DNA of 64,000 bases from Acinetobacter kookii. Its GTDB lineage: Bacteria > Pseudomonadota > Gammaproteobacteria > Pseudomonadales > Moraxellaceae. The notes beneath the pieces are model-generated. The model searched no databases, was not told the origin of the DNA, and saw only the letters and a list, made by a program, of their open reading frames with translations. Position numbers and translations under genes: made by a program. This document shows positions 57,624-64,000 of this stretch, piece by piece (the stretch's first letter is position 1; every line of letters begins with the position of its first letter). Location: positions 868,001 through 932,000 of the forward strand of contig NZ_FMYO01000001.1 of the NCBI RefSeq assembly GCF_900096895.1. The letters run 5' to 3'.

Positions 57624-59075
57624 ATGATGAATGATAAATCGCTGGAAATAGACCTGGTTGAAAGAACCCTTCAACCCGAAAACCAAAGTTTTGAACCCAC
57701 ACCTACAGAAACCGTTTCGCCTGCTTCTGAACAGACACAGCCGCCAAAAGAAAGTAGTTCCTATCAATGGTATGTAGTGGTAATTTGTATGCTGGCCTAC
57801 ATTCTTTCATTTGTAGACCGTCAAATCTTATCCTTGATGATTGAGCCGATTAAAGCCGATTTGATGCTCAGTGATACCCAGTTCAGCCTGTTACAGGGTC
57901 TGGCCTTCTCCTTATTTTATGCTTTTATGGGCGTACCGATTGCTGCACTGGCTGATAAAAAATCACGGATTAAAATCATCTCGGTCGGCATTGCCTTCTG
58001 GAGTCTGGCAACTGCCGCTTGTGGTTTAAGTAAGAACTTCATCCAAATGTTTCTGGCGCGCCTCAGTGTCGGCGCAGGTGAAGCAGCCCTGTCTCCTGCC
58101 TTTTACTCGATTGTTGCCGATTTATTCCCGAAAGAAAAAATAGGCCGTGCTCTGGGTGTGTATGCCATTGGTGCCTTTATTGGTTCAGGCCTGGCTTTCC
58201 TGATTGGTGGCTATGTGATTGGACTGTTAAAGGATGTCAGTTTTGTGGCTTTACCGCTTATTGGCGAAATCAAAACCTGGCAGCTGACCTTTATGATTGT
58301 CGGCTTACCCGGTGTGTTACTGGCACTCTTGATGATTCTGACCGTGCGTGAACCTGCTCGTAAAGGTTTAAAAGTCGGTCAGGATGGCAAAGTCATGAAA
58401 GCCTCTTTCAAGAACTCGATTGCCTTTATCAAGATGCATAGAAAAACCTTTTTCTGTCACTTTATCGGTTTTTCCTTCTACACCATGATGCTGTATTCAC
58501 TACTGGGCTGGGCACCGGCCTATTACATGCGTAACTTCGGCCTGGATGCAAGCCAGACCGGTTATATTCTGGGTTTGATTATCCTGATTGCCAACACTTC
58601 GGGTGCTTTATTCTGCGGCTGGCTGATCGACTTCTTTTCCAAGCGTGGTTATAGCGATGCGGCGATCCGTAGCGGTGCAATTGGCTGTGCAGCATTGATT
58701 GTCCCGAGCGTACTGTTTACTCAGGTCGATAATATGCAGCTTTCCTTCGCGCTGATTTTTGTTGCCATGTTCTTCTCAACCTTCCCGATTCCAGCCTCTG
58801 CAGCAGCAACCCAAATGCTGACCCCGAATCAGTTGCGTGCTCAGGTATCGGCAAAATTCTTGTTAATTTCCAACTTGATTGCGCTCGGGATCGGAACCAC
58901 AGCGGTGGCTTTAATTACCGATAAATATTTTCAGAACACGGTGATGGTCGGTAATTCTATTTCCATCGTCAATGCGGTTGCCGGTGTGATTGGGACCTTC
59001 TTATTATATAAAGGCTGTCAATATTACCGCGACAGTATCAAGCTGGAAAAGCAGGCGAATCAACACAATGCTTAA
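57624..59075 (+). CDS. MFS transporter, probable phenylacetate uptake
   Basis: 483-residue major facilitator with 12 predicted helices. The first ~48 residues are a polar Glu/Pro/Thr-rich cytoplasmic tail. Family features: YILSFVDRQILSLMIEPIKA at helix 1, GVPIAALADKKSRIKIISVG in loop 2-3, and ARLSVGAGEAALSPAFYSIV in helix 4, as in spinster-like and organic-anion MFS proteins. It is directly behind paaZ, has its own operator-like repeat, and is followed by a terminator. Uptake of phenylacetate or a related aromatic acid is inferred from context. Confidence 0.82.
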   Translation: MMNDKSLEIDLVERTLQPENQSFEPTPTETVSPASEQTQPPKESSSYQWYVVVICMLAYILSFVDRQILSLMIEPIKADLMLSDTQFSLLQGLAFSLFYAFMGVPIAALADKKSRIKIISVGIAFWSLATAACGLSKNFIQMFLARLSVGAGEAALSPAFYSIVADLFPKEKIGRALGVYAIGAFIGSGLAFLIGGYVIGLLKDVSFVALPLIGEIKTWQLTFMIVGLPGVLLALLMILTVREPARKGLKVGQDGKVMKASFKNSIAFIKMHRKTFFCHFIGFSFYTMMLYSLLGWAPAYYMRNFGLDASQTGYILGLIILIANTSGALFCGWLIDFFSKRGYSDAAIRSGAIGCAALIVPSVLFTQVDNMQLSFALIFVAMFFSTFPIPASAAATQMLTPNQLRAQVSAKFLLISNLIALGIGTTAVALITDKYFQNTVMVGNSISIVNAVAGVIGTFLLYKGCQYYRDSIKLEKQANQHNA

Positions 59076-59106
59076 AGACCGAACCCTGACCTTGAGCTAA
59101 ATTTTT

Positions 59107-59140
59107 AAAAGGCCTTCAAGCAAACGTTTGAAGGTCTTTT
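59107..59140 (+). terminator. Terminator after the MFS gene
   Basis: AAAAG-CCTTCAA arm (59107-59118) pairs with TTGAAGG-CTTTT (59129-59140) with one mismatch; a T-rich tail follows. Confidence 0.8.
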
Positions 59141-59255
59141 ATCTGCAACCCAACCATTCAATAAGGTATGTCCAATCAATCTATTCCCACTCCAGCCTAG
59201 ACAGCATGCCTAAAAAAACGTATAACACCGTTTTTCATTTAACAGGTGTCCGACG

Positions 59256-60191
59256 TTGAAACTTGTGCTTGCACCCATGGAAGGCTTAACAGACCCCATT
59301 ATGCGCGATGTACTTACATCCGTAGGGAGCTTTGACTGGTGTGTAACCGAGTTTATTCGTGTCACCGATTCAGTACTTCCCGATCATGTCTATCATAATT
59401 ACTGCCCGGAACTCCTCAATGATGGTAAAACCGCTGCTGGTACACCTGTGCATGTACAGTTTTTAGGAAATAACCCGGAAATGCTGGCAGCCAATGCCAT
59501 TCGTGCCGTGGAACTCGGGGCTCCTGCGATTGATATGAATTTCGGTTGCCCTGCAAAAACGGTTAATCGTCACCGTGGCGGTTCAGTGCTGCTGGATGAA
59601 CCCGAAGTGGTACATCTGCTGGTCAAAGCGGTTCGGGATGCTGTACCCAGTCATATTCCAGTTTCAGCCAAAATGCGCCTAGGCTATATGGACCGTAACT
59701 ATACCCTGGAAAATGCCCATGCCATTGAAGATGCGGGTGCGGCCTGGGTCACTGTGCATGCCCGCACCAAAGCAGAAGGTTATACTCCACCGGCTTTCTG
59801 GGATCAACTGCAACCGATTCGTGAAGCCTTAAACATCAATGTCATTGCCAATGGTGAAATCTGGACCAATACAGATGCCAAGCAATGCCAGCTTGAGTCT
59901 GGCTGTGAAGACCTGATGATTGGCCGGGCTGCTGTAACCACACCGGATATCACCCAATGTATCCGTCAAAATACTGATGAAGCCTTGATCACCTGGAATG
60001 AATTATTGGCTCTGCAAATTCGCTTCCTGAATGGTCCCTATAAAAAAGAAGTGAATATGATAGGACGCTATAAACAGTGGCTGGGCATGATGTCGAAGCA
60101 TTATCCCGAAGCCAAAGCATTGTGGAATGAGGTCAAACGCATTAAAGCCTTGGCTGAAATCATTGAAAAATTAAATGCGTCCAAGCATTAA
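59256..60191 (+). CDS. dusC: tRNA-dihydrouridine(16) synthase
   Basis: FMN enzyme reducing U16 of tRNA. The 311-residue TIM barrel begins MKLVLAPMEGLTDPIMRDVL; the start codon is TTG at 59256, with AGGTG upstream. The catalytic Cys is in IDMNFGCPAKTVNRHRGGSV, and FMN/RNA residues are in VSAKMRLGYMD and VHARTKAEGYTPPAFWDQ. The KAEGYTPPAFW segment and short length fit DusC rather than DusA or DusB. Monocistronic, with a terminator after it. Confidence 0.92.
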   Translation: MKLVLAPMEGLTDPIMRDVLTSVGSFDWCVTEFIRVTDSVLPDHVYHNYCPELLNDGKTAAGTPVHVQFLGNNPEMLAANAIRAVELGAPAIDMNFGCPAKTVNRHRGGSVLLDEPEVVHLLVKAVRDAVPSHIPVSAKMRLGYMDRNYTLENAHAIEDAGAAWVTVHARTKAEGYTPPAFWDQLQPIREALNINVIANGEIWTNTDAKQCQLESGCEDLMIGRAAVTTPDITQCIRQNTDEALITWNELLALQIRFLNGPYKKEVNMIGRYKQWLGMMSKHYPEAKALWNEVKRIKALAEIIEKLNASKH

Positions 60192-60195
60192 AGTC

Positions 60196-60226
60196 AAAAG
60201 CCTTTGAATGTTCCAAGGCTTTTTTA
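60196..60226. terminator. Bidirectional terminator dusC / NERD gene
   Basis: AAAAGCCTT (60196-60204), 10-nt loop, AAGGCTTTT (60215-60223), T-run. It is shared by two convergent genes. Confidence 0.88.
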
Positions 60227-60227
60227 T

Positions 60228-60884
60228 TCAGCCATTTCCTTTACGCTGTTTTAGATTTTCCACATGCATTCGACTGGTTTTCCAGGACTTCTCTAACACT
60301 TCTTTTTCAATCCGTAATTGAATCCGTTTCAGTTTCATCGCAGGAATGACTTCCTCCTGAAAACCTTTGACATAATCTGTCCACGCAGCACCGCGAAACA
60401 CATTACTTGGCATGGCTGTTTTAAATTCACTTTCTGGCATAAAAACAATCACCGAATGTAAATGCTGCGGTTCAAGAATGTCGGAGAGTACATCTTCGAG
60501 TACTTTCATGTGTTTATAATTCTGATGCAATGGATTTTGAAATTTATAGCTCTTTTTATAAATTTTTTGCGTCCACATTTTTTGACGTTCACCGCCAAAA
60601 ATCCAGCCGGTATAATTTTTGGTTTCAATCACAAAAATCCCAAAAGGACTTAGCAGAATATGATCAATTTGCGTCGTCCCTGCCTGTTCATCTGGCAAAG
60701 TGCAATCATTTAATAAAATGTAACGCGGGTCTTTTAAATAGAGTTTGACGTGTACAGCTACCGCGAGCTCCCCTACTTTGCCTTTAATGAAGGGTTTAAG
60801 GGCTTTGAAAATCCCTATGGCAATAAAAGCAAGAATAATCCACCAAAAGCTTGACCCAAGTTGTACAACTATCTGACTCAACAT
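60228..60884 (-). CDS. Membrane-anchored NERD-domain protein
   Basis: 218 residues: an N-terminal membrane helix (about 10-28, GSSFWWIILAFIAIGIFKAL), then a NERD (nuclease-related) domain (about 35-160). Nuclease-fold residues are in QIDHILLSPFGIFVIETKNY (the Asp and the E-x-K pair). The C-terminus is basic and helical. NERD proteins are thought to be nucleases or nucleic-acid-binding proteins, but no substrate is known. No partner gene suggests a restriction or defence system here. Confidence 0.82.
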   Translation of the reverse strand: MLSQIVVQLGSSFWWIILAFIAIGIFKALKPFIKGKVGELAVAVHVKLYLKDPRYILLNDCTLPDEQAGTTQIDHILLSPFGIFVIETKNYTGWIFGGERQKMWTQKIYKKSYKFQNPLHQNYKHMKVLEDVLSDILEPQHLHSVIVFMPESEFKTAMPSNVFRGAAWTDYVKGFQEEVIPAMKLKRIQLRIEKEVLEKSWKTSRMHVENLKQRKGNG

Positions 60885-60919
60885 TTTATTGATCTTTATT
60901 TTTAATAAGACTTTATAAT

Positions 60920-61402
60920 TTAAACAATTTTCTCTAATTTTAACAGAATTTCTTTATTGTCTAGCCCACCGGCAAAACCGACCAGTTTACCGTTTGCACC
61001 CACCACACGATGACACGGCGCAATAATGGAAATCGGGTTTTTCCCGTTAGCTGCGCCCACTGCACGTACCGCTTTGACGTTACCGACTTGCTCGGCAATA
61101 TCACGGTAACTGCGGGTTTCGCCAAAGGGAATGGTCAGCAAGGCTTGCCAGACTTTCTGCTGAAATTCAGTCCCTTCAAAATCTAGAGGCAAATCAAATT
61201 GCTGCCGTTTTCCAGCAAAATATTCGCTTAACTGTTTTTGGGTTTCCAATAAAATTGGATGATGTGTCTGTTCAATCAGTTCGGCTAAACGTACCCGTTT
61301 GGGATTTTCATTTTCCCAAAGTACCGCCACCAAAGCCGTGTCATTGGCGACCAGTTTTAAGGTACCCACAGGAGAAGCCATTTCCATAAATGCCAGTTTC
61401 AT
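60920..61402 (-). CDS. ogt: Methylated-DNA-[protein]-cysteine S-methyltransferase
   Basis: Suicide repair of O6-alkylguanine. The 160-residue protein has the DNA-binding helix region RSYRDIAEQVGNVKAVRAVG, the arginine finger within it, and the acceptor Cys in IIAPCHRVVGANGKL. It lacks an Ada-type N-terminal domain. It lies between the NERD gene and sugE, all leftward, with gaps of 35 and 49 bp, so some co-transcription is possible. Confidence 0.94.
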   Translation of the reverse strand: MKLAFMEMASPVGTLKLVANDTALVAVLWENENPKRVRLAELIEQTHHPILLETQKQLSEYFAGKRQQFDLPLDFEGTEFQQKVWQALLTIPFGETRSYRDIAEQVGNVKAVRAVGAANGKNPISIIAPCHRVVGANGKLVGFAGGLDNKEILLKLEKIV

Positions 61403-61451
61403 TGTCTTCTCCTATAGTGCATTAAATAAGCGATATAATAAGGAAGAGTGG

Positions 61452-61769
61452 TTATGATGATGATAGTTTCATCAATACCAATCCAGAAATAATCAGTACC
61501 GCGGCGAGCATGCGCATGGCCGATGCAGGCTCACCCAAAATAAATACCCCGACCAGAAAAGAACCCACTGCACCAATTCCGGTCCAAATGGTATAGGCGG
61601 TACCCAACGGCAAGGTTCGCATGGCATAAGCCAGTAAAGCAAAACTTAACACCATAAAAACCAGAGTAATGATACTCGGGGTGAGACGGGTGAAACCTTC
61701 TGACAGTTTCATGGCATAGGCCCAGACAATTTCAAAAATACCCGCTAAAACCAGAACGATCCAAGCCAT
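61452..61769 (-). CDS. sugE: Guanidinium exporter Gdx/SugE (SMR family)
   Basis: Proton-coupled guanidinium exporter. I use the ATG at 61767-61769 (MAWIVLVLAGIFEIVWAYAM, 105 residues). An in-frame ATG at 61835 would run through the riboswitch and is rejected. Four helices; the proton/substrate Glu is Glu13 in GIFEIVWAYAMKLSEGFT, the Gdx signature, which distinguishes it from EmrE-type drug exporters. GGAG lies at 61780-61783. A predicted guanidine-II riboswitch in the leader gives strong functional support. Confidence 0.93.
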   Translation of the reverse strand: MAWIVLVLAGIFEIVWAYAMKLSEGFTRLTPSIITLVFMVLSFALLAYAMRTLPLGTAYTIWTGIGAVGSFLVGVFILGEPASAMRMLAAVLIISGLVLMKLSSS

Positions 61770-61794
61770 GACGACGATGCTCCATTTGATCAGA

Positions 61795-61864
61795 GTCAGG
61801 TCGTCCTGACGAATTTTCTTCCTGCAACAACCCATTTGGTTGCACCAAGGGAGGTCGTTCCTCC
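61795..61864 (-). ncRNA. Guanidine-II (mini-ykkC) riboswitch candidate
   Basis: On the minus strand two hairpins with ACGA loops lie in tandem in the sugE leader. Hairpin 2 (61795-61810) is perfect, GTCAGG-ACGA-CCTGAC. Hairpin 1 (61850-61864) is GGAGG-AACGA-CCTCC, with one extra A in the loop. Spacing is 39 nt, inside the known 7-40 nt range as I remember it. A TATAAT -10 sits at 61880-61885, so transcription should start about 10 nt before hairpin 1. Guanidine-II riboswitches activate Gdx/SugE exporters, which is exactly the gene downstream. Confidence 0.8.
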
Positions 61865-61954
61865 TGTCATTGATCGATAATTATATAAATAATTGAGGGA
61901 ACTGGGTGCATGTTTTACATTTTTTGACCAATTGCTCACTTTAAAAGTGCAAAT

Positions 61955-61988
61955 AAAAATACGACTGGCCTCAACCAGTCGTATTTTT
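61955..61988 (-). terminator. Terminator after copB
   Basis: Perfect 14-bp stem AAAAATACGACTGG (61955-61968) and CCAGTCGTATTTTT (61975-61988), 6-nt loop; T-run on the minus strand. It ends the copAB transcript. Confidence 0.93.
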
Positions 61989-62005
61989 TGGAGCCATGAG
62001 TGGGA

Positions 62006-62920
62006 TTAAAATTTAAAACGTATCCCTGCACCATATAGCCATTCTTGATCAGATGCTGATTCCGCTTGCCAAGCAGTCTGCTCACGCCCCTGTTTGTATC
62101 CATAGGCCACATCAATAAAAGGCATGACCTTTTTATTGATTTCATAACGGGTTTCCAGCCCCAATTGTGCCGTGCTTAAACCGGTTTTTTGCGCATAGCT
62201 GGAGTCATCACTCAACACCACATTCAAGTCCAGATAAGGCTTAACAATCAATTTTTGCGTCAGCAGCACATCGCGTTCGGTTTCCAGGCTCAAAGAAGTT
62301 TGATTATCCTGCCCGACATAGAGATAGGCATTGGTTTCAAAGAAATACGGTGCCAGCCCATGCACCCCAATCACGGCATCGACCTGATCCTGATCGACTT
62401 CCCGATTCTGGTCATTGCGATAGCGTAAACCGGCCTGTACATCCCAAAAATCGGCAACATTACGACTGTACAACACTTTGGCATCATATTCCGCTTGCTC
62501 TGACTCAGCATCATCAGCATGGACTTTGATAAAAATCTTGTTTTCATCTGTCCCGATACGGGTTTCCAGCTCCGACTTGAGAATCCCTTCTCCATCGTTA
62601 TTGCGTAACCAGCGACTTTCAAGCGTGGTTTGCTGATAAATCTGCCCGCCATGCTCCTGGATATGCTCGGCAGATGCAGCATCATTCGAGTTCACATTTT
62701 CATCTTGAACAGCAATTACGGGTTTTGCTTTAACAGGTGTTTGGTCTGTCGTTGACACGACATGATGTTGTGAATGATCCACCGGTATTGCATTTTGTGC
62801 TGACGTCTGCGCTTCCGCCATCGGCATGGTTTGATGACTTGGCTGTGCAAAACTTTGCCCAGATAACAATAAGCATGAGGCACTCAATGTGCCCATTACA
62901 AAGTGATTAATGATGCGCAT
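62006..62920 (-). CDS. copB: Copper resistance protein B
   Basis: Outer-membrane beta-barrel protein of copper resistance. I use the ATG at 62918-62920 (MRIINHFVMGTLSASCLLLS, 304 residues), with AAGGAGA upstream. Signal peptide ends near QSFAQ. A short Met/His/Ala/Gln-rich region (about 28-90, with HSQHHVVSTTDQTP) precedes the barrel, which carries alternating aromatic/hydrophobic strands and ends in Phe (LYGAGIRFKF), as outer-membrane proteins do. The start lies inside the end of copA (14-bp overlap), so translation is coupled. Confidence 0.93.
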   Translation of the reverse strand: MRIINHFVMGTLSASCLLLSGQSFAQPSHQTMPMAEAQTSAQNAIPVDHSQHHVVSTTDQTPVKAKPVIAVQDENVNSNDAASAEHIQEHGGQIYQQTTLESRWLRNNDGEGILKSELETRIGTDENKIFIKVHADDAESEQAEYDAKVLYSRNVADFWDVQAGLRYRNDQNREVDQDQVDAVIGVHGLAPYFFETNAYLYVGQDNQTSLSLETERDVLLTQKLIVKPYLDLNVVLSDDSSYAQKTGLSTAQLGLETRYEINKKVMPFIDVAYGYKQGREQTAWQAESASDQEWLYGAGIRFKF

Positions 62921-64000
62921 GTGAGTCTCCTTGCTCAACTTGAGCCGGTGTAGCAGGTGAAGCGAGCGTTTTATTTCCGTCGACATTGGCCACTACCAGT
63001 TTGCTCATCATACCCGATGACATGTGATAAAGCAGATGGCAATGAATTGCCCATTCTCCTAATTCGTCCGCGGTCAGTAATGCGGTTACCGTTTTACCCG
63101 GCGGCACAATCAGAGTGTGTTTATTCGGCATATTTGCGCTACTTTGCCCATTTTCCAGCTGCATAAACATGCCATGCAGATGCATCGGATGCGCCATCAT
63201 GCTGTCATTGATAAATTTCAGGCGGATACGTTCGCCATATTTCACCTGTAGCGGTTTCACTTCGGTAAATTTCTTGCCATTGATGGTCCAGATATAACGC
63301 TCCATGTTGCCGCCCAAACGCACTTCCAGTTCACGCTCCGCCGGACGGGTATCGGGCTGTGGAGTGAGTGATTTCAAGTCGCCATATTGCAGCGCCTTAT
63401 GCCCTGTGGGTGTGGATGCATTGGCCCAGCCGTAAACCACGGCTGCCTTCTTATCTGAAGCGGGTTGTGCTGTACGATGCGTTGTATGGCTTTGCTCGTG
63501 CTGCTGATCAGACTCAGGCTGTGCGGATGGCTGAGTCGCATGTTGCGAATGCTCCTGCATGGCTGCATGATTCATTTGAGTATGATCCATGCTCTGATGA
63601 TCCAGTGCAGCCATGTCATGTTTCATTGACGAATGATTCATCTTTGAATGATCCATCATTTGATGTTTCATTGCGCCTGGACTATGTGAATCTGCACTGG
63701 CTGGATTTGTACTACTCTGACCATCATCCATCTGGGCATGGTTGGCATGATCACTGGATGCAGAACCGTGCCCCATATCTTCCATGGTCAGTAATGCACG
63801 TGGACGTGGTTTCGGCATGTGAATCGCATGCGTCACTGGAGAATTTTCATTATGCAATGTCCCAATGGCAAACCCGCTCCGGTCAATCGACTCGGCTTCA
63901 ATCTGATAATGATTGGCTTTCGGTTCCACAATCACATCATAGGTTTCTGCAGTGCCTATGCGAAATTCATCTACAGGTACCGGTTGCACGGGCTGGCCAT
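62907..64000 (-). CDS. copA: Copper resistance multicopper oxidase CopA (partial)
   Basis: Periplasmic cuprous oxidase of the CopA family. Only the C-terminal ~364 residues are present; the frame stays open to position 64000, so the true start is beyond the window. The C-terminal cupredoxin has the copper ligands HPMHLHGMFMQL and HCHLLYHMSSGMM. Before it lies a Met/His-rich insertion (about 63430-63790) with many DHxxM and MxHxxM units, probably binding Cu(I). It is followed by copB. Confident on family; the N-terminal Tat signal cannot be checked. Confidence 0.92.
   Translation of the reverse strand, partial: GQPVQPVPVDEFRIGTAETYDVIVEPKANHYQIEAESIDRSGFAIGTLHNENSPVTHAIHMPKPRPRALLTMEDMGHGSASSDHANHAQMDDGQSSTNPASADSHSPGAMKHQMMDHSKMNHSSMKHDMAALDHQSMDHTQMNHAAMQEHSQHATQPSAQPESDQQHEQSHTTHRTAQPASDKKAAVVYGWANASTPTGHKALQYGDLKSLTPQPDTRPAERELEVRLGGNMERYIWTINGKKFTEVKPLQVKYGERIRLKFINDSMMAHPMHLHGMFMQLENGQSSANMPNKHTLIVPPGKTVTALLTADELGEWAIHCHLLYHMSSGMMSKLVVANVDGNKTLASPATPAQVEQGDSHAHH

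Follow-up and report, generated by a model that had tools for sequence, protein, structure and literature searches.

In the window, by which we mean the whole 64,000-nucleotide stretch of Acinetobacter kookii DNA that was analysed, a leader of about 100 bases lies on the minus strand between copB (62986–62006) and sugE (61769–61452). The SugE protein scored 131.6 bits against the equivalog model NF008512 (curated cut-off 126) and matched PF00893, which bears out an earlier reading of the letters alone (hereafter the sequence-only reading) that had placed a Gdx-type exporter behind a pair of hairpins; the remaining SMR family models listed for the protein all scored under their own cut-offs, and its closest SugE relatives were Acinetobacter proteins at 97–98% identity. 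By family model the exporter is of the Gdx subtype of SMR transporters, and its transport function is a prediction from sequence. Its best PDB chains were 8vxu and 6wk5, which we take to be the exporter Gdx-Clo. Read 5′ to 3′, the leader is composed of TATAAT, a first hairpin (P1), a 39-base linker, a second hairpin (P2), GGAG, GTCGTC and the ATG, with 25 bases between the end of P2 and the ATG. The features are as follows:

62006 to 62986, minus strand: copB, identified by a match to PF05275.
61880 to 61885, minus strand: TATAAT, the probable −10 element of the leader promoter, 15 bases before P1.
61850 to 61864, minus strand: P1, GGAGG-AACGA-CCTCC, with a five-base loop in which an extra A stands between the closing G and ACGA.
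61821 to 61849, minus strand: third helix, immediately 3′ of P1 within the linker, CUUG/CAGG plus GCAACC/GGUUGU, drawn from minimum-free-energy (MFE) folds and from covariation in relatives.
61811 to 61820, minus strand: A-rich spacer before P2, of 10 bases if the third helix is closed by CUUG/CAGG and 7 if closed by CUU/AAG.
61795 to 61810, minus strand: P2, GTCAGG-ACGA-CCTGAC, a canonical ACGR hairpin.
61765 to 61810, minus strand: predicted alternative (OFF) hairpin, pairing GUCA with UGGC of codons 1–2, GACGAC with GUCGUC, and CUCU with the Shine-Dalgarno GGAG.
61780 to 61783, minus strand: Shine-Dalgarno sequence GGAG.
61770 to 61775, minus strand: GTCGTC, between the Shine-Dalgarno sequence and the ATG.
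61767 to 61769, minus strand: start codon ATG.
61452 to 61769, minus strand: sugE/gdx, SMR-family exporter gene, 105 aa (NF008512, PF00893).

Both ACGA hairpins of the sequence-only reading are present, at 61864–61850 and 61810–61795, and are kept in relatives; each of the two loops contains CG, fit for two kissing pairs. Hairpin pairs with ACGR or AACGR loops, stems of at least five pairs and a separation of 16–150 bases occurred once in the 64-kb window, whereas first-order Markov sequences yielded 0.05 per 64 kb (maximum 1 in 60), and with stems of at least four pairs the Markov expectation was 0.15. The P1 pattern GRGGAACGRCCTC had a single occurrence in the 3.09-Mb genome, and a search for a plasmid-borne copy of the 131-base leader returned no match. 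The TATAAT noticed upstream of the first hairpin was likewise found, at 61885–61880, and is common to the four leaders of the window's clade (L001–L004) at 11–16 bases before P1; a consensus promoter scan listed no minus-strand promoter at the leader and left TATAAT unreported.

Conservation was surveyed in 61 loci of Acinetobacter and other Moraxellaceae (L001–L061) that were found by the SugE protein alone. P1 carried an AACG loop, the form with the extra A noticed in the window's first loop, in 43 of these, while four (L012, L036, L039, L049) had an ACGA P1 together with a linker hairpin, nine (L050, L052–L057, L059, L060) had canonical ACGA and a short linker without predicted structure, and L061 had canonical loops plus a CCCG hairpin; P1 was damaged in one locus (L010), and both hairpins were missing from three (L042, L043, L045). 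By this survey, homologous leaders do conserve the ACGA loops. In L042 and L045 the matched sugE is apparently the downstream member of a tandem pair of sugE-like genes, and the sequence directly upstream of it resembles the end of another sugE. In L036 and L039 (A. portensis), P1 can also be drawn with the five-base loop ACGAC, the extra base then lying 3′ and not 5′.

The sequence-only reading had looked to the Rfam mini-ykkC model (RF01068) for recognition of the element, and this was not forthcoming: the model scored the window at 14.1 bits against a cut-off of 32, and its alignment set Rfam's P1 on the window's linker hairpin. No family reached gathering in an Rfam search of the whole window, and weak matches to RsaF and SAM-SAH, far under their cut-offs, were judged to be chance. 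RF01068 reached gathering in three of the 61 loci (L054, L057, L060), all canonical with short linkers, in 0 of the 43 AACG loci, and in five of 19 other loci (L062–L080). A new covariance model was built from 21 relatives, with the window and L001–L004 excluded, and scored the window at 71.0 bits (E 3.5e-18); its second-best match reached 11.6 bits. Across 158 genomes of the genus, searched under strict filters by which weak matches are lost, the new model matched 120 at E ≤ 0.001 and gave 107 loci of at least 40 bits, one per genome; RF01068, under the same filters, matched 21 of these genomes at E ≤ 0.001 and exceeded its cut-off in 14, and none of its matches coincided with the 107 new-model loci. 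The blindness of RF01068 to these strong loci is due to the five-base P1 loop and the covarying third helix, and guanidine control of Acinetobacter exporters may go unannotated. Among 252 genomes of the class, the new model matched the window's own and one other (28.6 bits). In G922, G935, G944 and others, RF01068 matched at places other than the new-model sugE-type leader, and these additional places perhaps precede other guanidine genes.

The leader resembles guanidine-II riboswitches (RF01068) in having two G+C-rich ACGR hairpins in a sugE/gdx leader near the ribosome site, in the fully canonical ACGR tetraloop of its P2, and in having a close relative, L012, that combines a canonical ACGA loop with the same architecture; it differs in its P1 loop, AACGA where the class has an ACGR tetraloop closed directly by G–C, in a linker filled by a conserved third helix, and in its Rfam score. 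The guanidine-II identity first proposed from the letters thus holds on homology, gene context and conservation and falls short on two family features, the Rfam cut-off and the P1 tetraloop; the element is therefore a diverged variant and not a typical member, and its descent from guanidine-II is well supported. Guanidine-II linkers are given as 7–40 bases in excerpts of PMC7544219 and PMC7357161 and as mostly at least 13 bases in excerpts of PMC5486947; at 39 bases the window's linker lies inside 7–40, and those of L001–L061 run from 14 to 127 bases, some of them beyond the range.

The E. coli gdx leader (L104) also has canonical P1 and P2 before gdx, but its linker, 17 bases long when the stems are taken as 5 and 4 pairs, is without predicted structure and both of its hairpins bear tetraloops. 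Several sugE leaders from Pseudomonas and Janthinobacterium (L078, L063 and others) share a short CCC..GGG hairpin that abuts P1 on its 3′ side, but L063 and L078 have a four-base P1 loop, and many canonical leaders outside Acinetobacter have a P1-adjacent linker hairpin of just two or three pairs or none; the helix is therefore wider than the genus without being universal. Of the 20 Rfam-found loci of the class, 17 were parsed on both strands (L096, L097 and L101 were unparsed), and 12 of the 17 were without predicted linker structure, the five with some being L088, L090, L091, L100 and L102, of which L100's starts at the first linker base. Excerpts of published accounts describe two tetraloop hairpins joined by a linker that is flexible (PMC7544219) or poorly conserved (PMC9561414), and a conserved linker helix goes unmentioned in the excerpted text of PMC9094411, PMC9300104, PMC7544219, PMC7357161, PMC9561414 and PMC10907184; in the mini-ykkC literature searched, Acinetobacter is named in a reference list only.

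The possible third hairpin that the sequence-only reading had glimpsed between P1 and P2 is conserved, and seven of its eight pairs covary. In the window its outer pairs are weaker than those of relatives, leaving a spacer of 10 and not 7 bases, whereas the inner GCAACC/GGUUGU is strong. The register was tested in 48 leaders with linkers of at least 17 bases (18 to 127 bases long, the window included and L061 left out) by setting the first eight linker bases against the eight that end seven bases before P2. The pairing fraction was 0.815 at spacer 7 and 0.454, 0.420, 0.414 and 0.372 at spacers 5, 6, 8 and 9. Eight pairs fit in 44 of the leaders, and there 287 of 352 cells were paired, a number reached in 0 of 10,000 swap controls (mean 227.5, maximum 253). 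Spacer 7 was the best in 39 of the 48 leaders, spacer 8 in four, spacer 10 in three, and spacers 9 and 11 in a single leader each. A helix of at least three base pairs placed exactly 0 bases after P1 and 7 before P2 was present in 37 of the 43 protein-found AACG loci, compared with a mean of 2.3 and a maximum of 8 over 1000 rounds of linker shuffling and a mean of 3.5 and a maximum of 8 when the linker core alone was shuffled; at least four pairs at any nearby register were found in 40 of the 43, compared with 13.7 for shuffled linkers.

Covariation pointed to the same register. In alignment A1, made of 21 sequences picked for linkers of about 33–42 bases, seven of the eight third-helix pairs had changed on both sides, and the covariation of the helix was 0.278, compared with at most 0.079 when slid; all five P1 pairs were kept in 21 of 21 sequences. 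Taken over the whole structure of A1, two of five measures were not exceptional, the count of pairs changed on both sides being reached by 22 of 500 shuffles and that of further pair types by 140 of 500, and the other three were reached by 0 of 500. On the sugE tree, counted over 50 rows with linkers of at least 25 bases, the paired columns had 41 co-changes, off-register pairs averaging 2.84 each, and 41 was reached by 1 of 40,320 column permutations. The 107 model-found loci agree, although they are not independent proof of the helix because they were found using the structure: of the 104 parsed (L217, L237 and L238 were unparsed), 84 carried the helix precisely in the 0 and 7 register, and all 104 had at least three pairs within 0–1 base of P1, which says little alone. 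The third helix thus starts at the base after P1, and what separates its end from P2 is in most leaders an A-rich strand of seven bases; among 79 distinct linkers of the model-found loci, 78 had A as the third base of this strand. The outer helix and seven-base spacer are retained even in the 127-base linker of L040, a metagenome-assembled genome (MAG) of Candidatus Acinetobacter avistercoris. On the plus strand, the complement of P2 and the spacer is an intrinsic-terminator-like site (61795–61810; 1 found, 0.7 expected), which might stop antisense transcripts and explain part of the A-richness of the spacer.

The sequence-only reading had further supposed that P2 could open and pair with GTCGTC, hiding the start site. 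The supposition stands as a principle, and GTCGTC is one of several solutions to it. By local folding, the OFF hairpin of the window was predicted to be favoured over the P2 form by 5.9 kcal/mol; it also appeared in the MFE structure of the whole leader, where holding P2 cost about 2.1 kcal/mol by the ensemble. The OFF hairpin was predicted to be more stable than P2 in 40 of the 48 leaders and P2 the more stable in eight, and at least two Shine-Dalgarno bases were paired in the OFF hairpin of all 48; its mean of −16.27 kcal/mol compares with −10.41 for shuffled tails (sd 0.33, 30 rounds). As the sole conserved competitor GTCGTC was rejected as too narrow, being present in nine of the 48, and a six-base run matching P2 was reached by 308 of 5000 shuffled tails, so that the GTCGTC match alone is near chance. 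Covariation of the ACGA/ACGG choice with the tail was likewise unsupported, since on exchange of P2 forms a leader's own was better in 27 cases and the other in 21. In whole-leader ensembles, which fold without kissing, the start became slightly more accessible when P2 was held, 0.23 rising to 0.35 for the window and 0.329 to 0.435 across 45 leaders (L012, L036 and L039 left out), the rise being seen in 38 of the 45 and exceeding 0.2 in only 11. A P2/start competitor is therefore plausible as a folding prediction. The idea is not new, since a hairpin that overlaps P2 and the ribosome site and is exclusive with the folded riboswitch was proposed in 2017 for Gloeobacter violaceus, according to excerpts of PMC5486947; both loops of that leader are ACGA tetraloops, and the competitor was proposed there for one leader, whereas here it was compared over 48.

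Together, these features make it highly probable that the leader is a translational ON switch for a guanidinium exporter and a diverged guanidine-II variant, its response to ligand being predicted from sequence and folding. Without ligand, P2 would open and its strands would pair with the Shine-Dalgarno sequence, the bases before the AUG and the first codons, and the start would therefore be hidden. With guanidine, P2 would close and its ACGA would kiss that of P1 through two C–G pairs, as in published structures of the class, thereby freeing the start; a review groups guanidine-II with switches whose ribosome site is freed by ligand (PMC10907184, excerpts). Alternatively, the Shine-Dalgarno sequence might be sequestered in the OFF state by an anti-Shine-Dalgarno located in P1 or in the linker, on the model of the P0 helix of Pseudomonas aeruginosa, whose mutants behave as predicted (PMC9561414, excerpts). 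The 3′ strand of P1, CCUCC, is complementary to a Shine-Dalgarno sequence, and the published class has been assigned a putative anti-Shine-Dalgarno in its linker (PMC9094411, excerpts), but Acinetobacter linkers vary in sequence and are bound up in the helix, and the predicted fold of the window alters P2 while keeping P1 and the linker helix, which makes this version of the OFF state unlikely.

In the P2/start switch that we favour, the third helix would stack on P1, so that linkers of varied length become one short tether. If the helix does stack on P1, the seven free bases beyond it would equal the shortest linker given for the class. A different role, with the helix outside the ON state, serving transcription or RNA stability, and its spacing a product of common descent, would be compatible with the terminator-like site that the A-rich spacer and P2 form on the opposite strand, and also with the sugE tree, where the five changes of loop state are too few to test coupling of loop and helix; the spacer of 7, however, is mostly kept despite many changes of helix sequence and of linker length (16 to 127 bases in linkers carrying the helix), and we regard this role as quite unlikely. 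Strict coupling of the five-base loop to the third helix was itself rejected, as L012 and some other ACGA leaders carry the helix. Over the 82 tree rows the sign test of coupling was without power, and the presence of the helix was read by eye in six AACGA rows (L001, L006, L018, L025, L029, L035), where the best helix skips the first base or, for L006, the parse had shortened P1.

The loop state changed five times on the same tree of 82 rows. The sister rows L012 (ACGA) and L033 (AACGA), joined with support 83, have the same helix and spacer, and the ACGA and AACGA loops therefore belong to one homologous element. Searches by an AACGR pattern, whose gap limit misses long linkers, including the window's own, found it in 29 of 199 family genomes, all within the window's genus, and in three of 398 phylum genomes, all of one other genus of the class. 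All 32 of these loci lie before an SMR gene with a helix 0 bases from P1, the spacer being 7 in 27 of the 29 within the genus and 9 in the three of the other genus, where the linker hairpin is CCC..GGG. AACGR was also present in L076, a MAG labelled as Afipia, and in 98 of the 104 parsed model-found loci.

In the guanidine-II dimer structure, as excerpted from PMC5486947, the stem is closed by G6–C11 and followed by a sharp turn, A7, C8 and G9 are stacked in contact with the loop of the partner, and the guanidinium ion lies stacked on G6, bonded to backbone phosphates at the turn. Set against this geometry, AACGA amounts to a base inserted at the turn: the extra A would separate the first A of the loop from the closing G that forms the floor of the published guanidine pocket, and would thus lie, by analogy, where the excerpted structures place the pocket. 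We tentatively consider, as a possibility that falls short of being likely, that the Acinetobacter leaders form a guanidine-II subclass of their own, with a P1 pocket rebuilt by an A inserted at its cation–π floor and a helix stacked under P1 that meets some of the docking cost beforehand. P1 of such a subclass would bind guanidine differently, prefer another guanidino compound or only kiss, and the leader would have either one working pocket with little cooperativity or a new ligand. With a five-base loop and, mostly, a seven-base tether in the majority of its leaders, Acinetobacter offers a natural experiment on loop–loop docking in relation to tether and pocket. That the five-base loop has inactivated P1, leaving a riboswitch in decay whose only responsive part, if any, is P2, would suit an insertion in the published ligand pocket (PMC5486947, excerpts) and an element unrecognised by Rfam, but is improbable given that P1 is nearly invariant while the linker varies and that AACGR prevails in the model-found loci and recurs in three genomes of another genus.

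No tRNA or tmRNA genes were found within positions 58000–64000. A methylated-DNA–protein-cysteine methyltransferase gene (60920–61402, minus strand) lies 49 bases downstream of sugE. Because the gap between them contains no listed terminator-like site on the minus strand, and because a PCHR motif occurs within 600 bases 3′ of sugE in 42 of the 61 Acinetobacter and Moraxellaceae loci, the transcript of the leader may be common to the genes of the exporter and the DNA repair enzyme.
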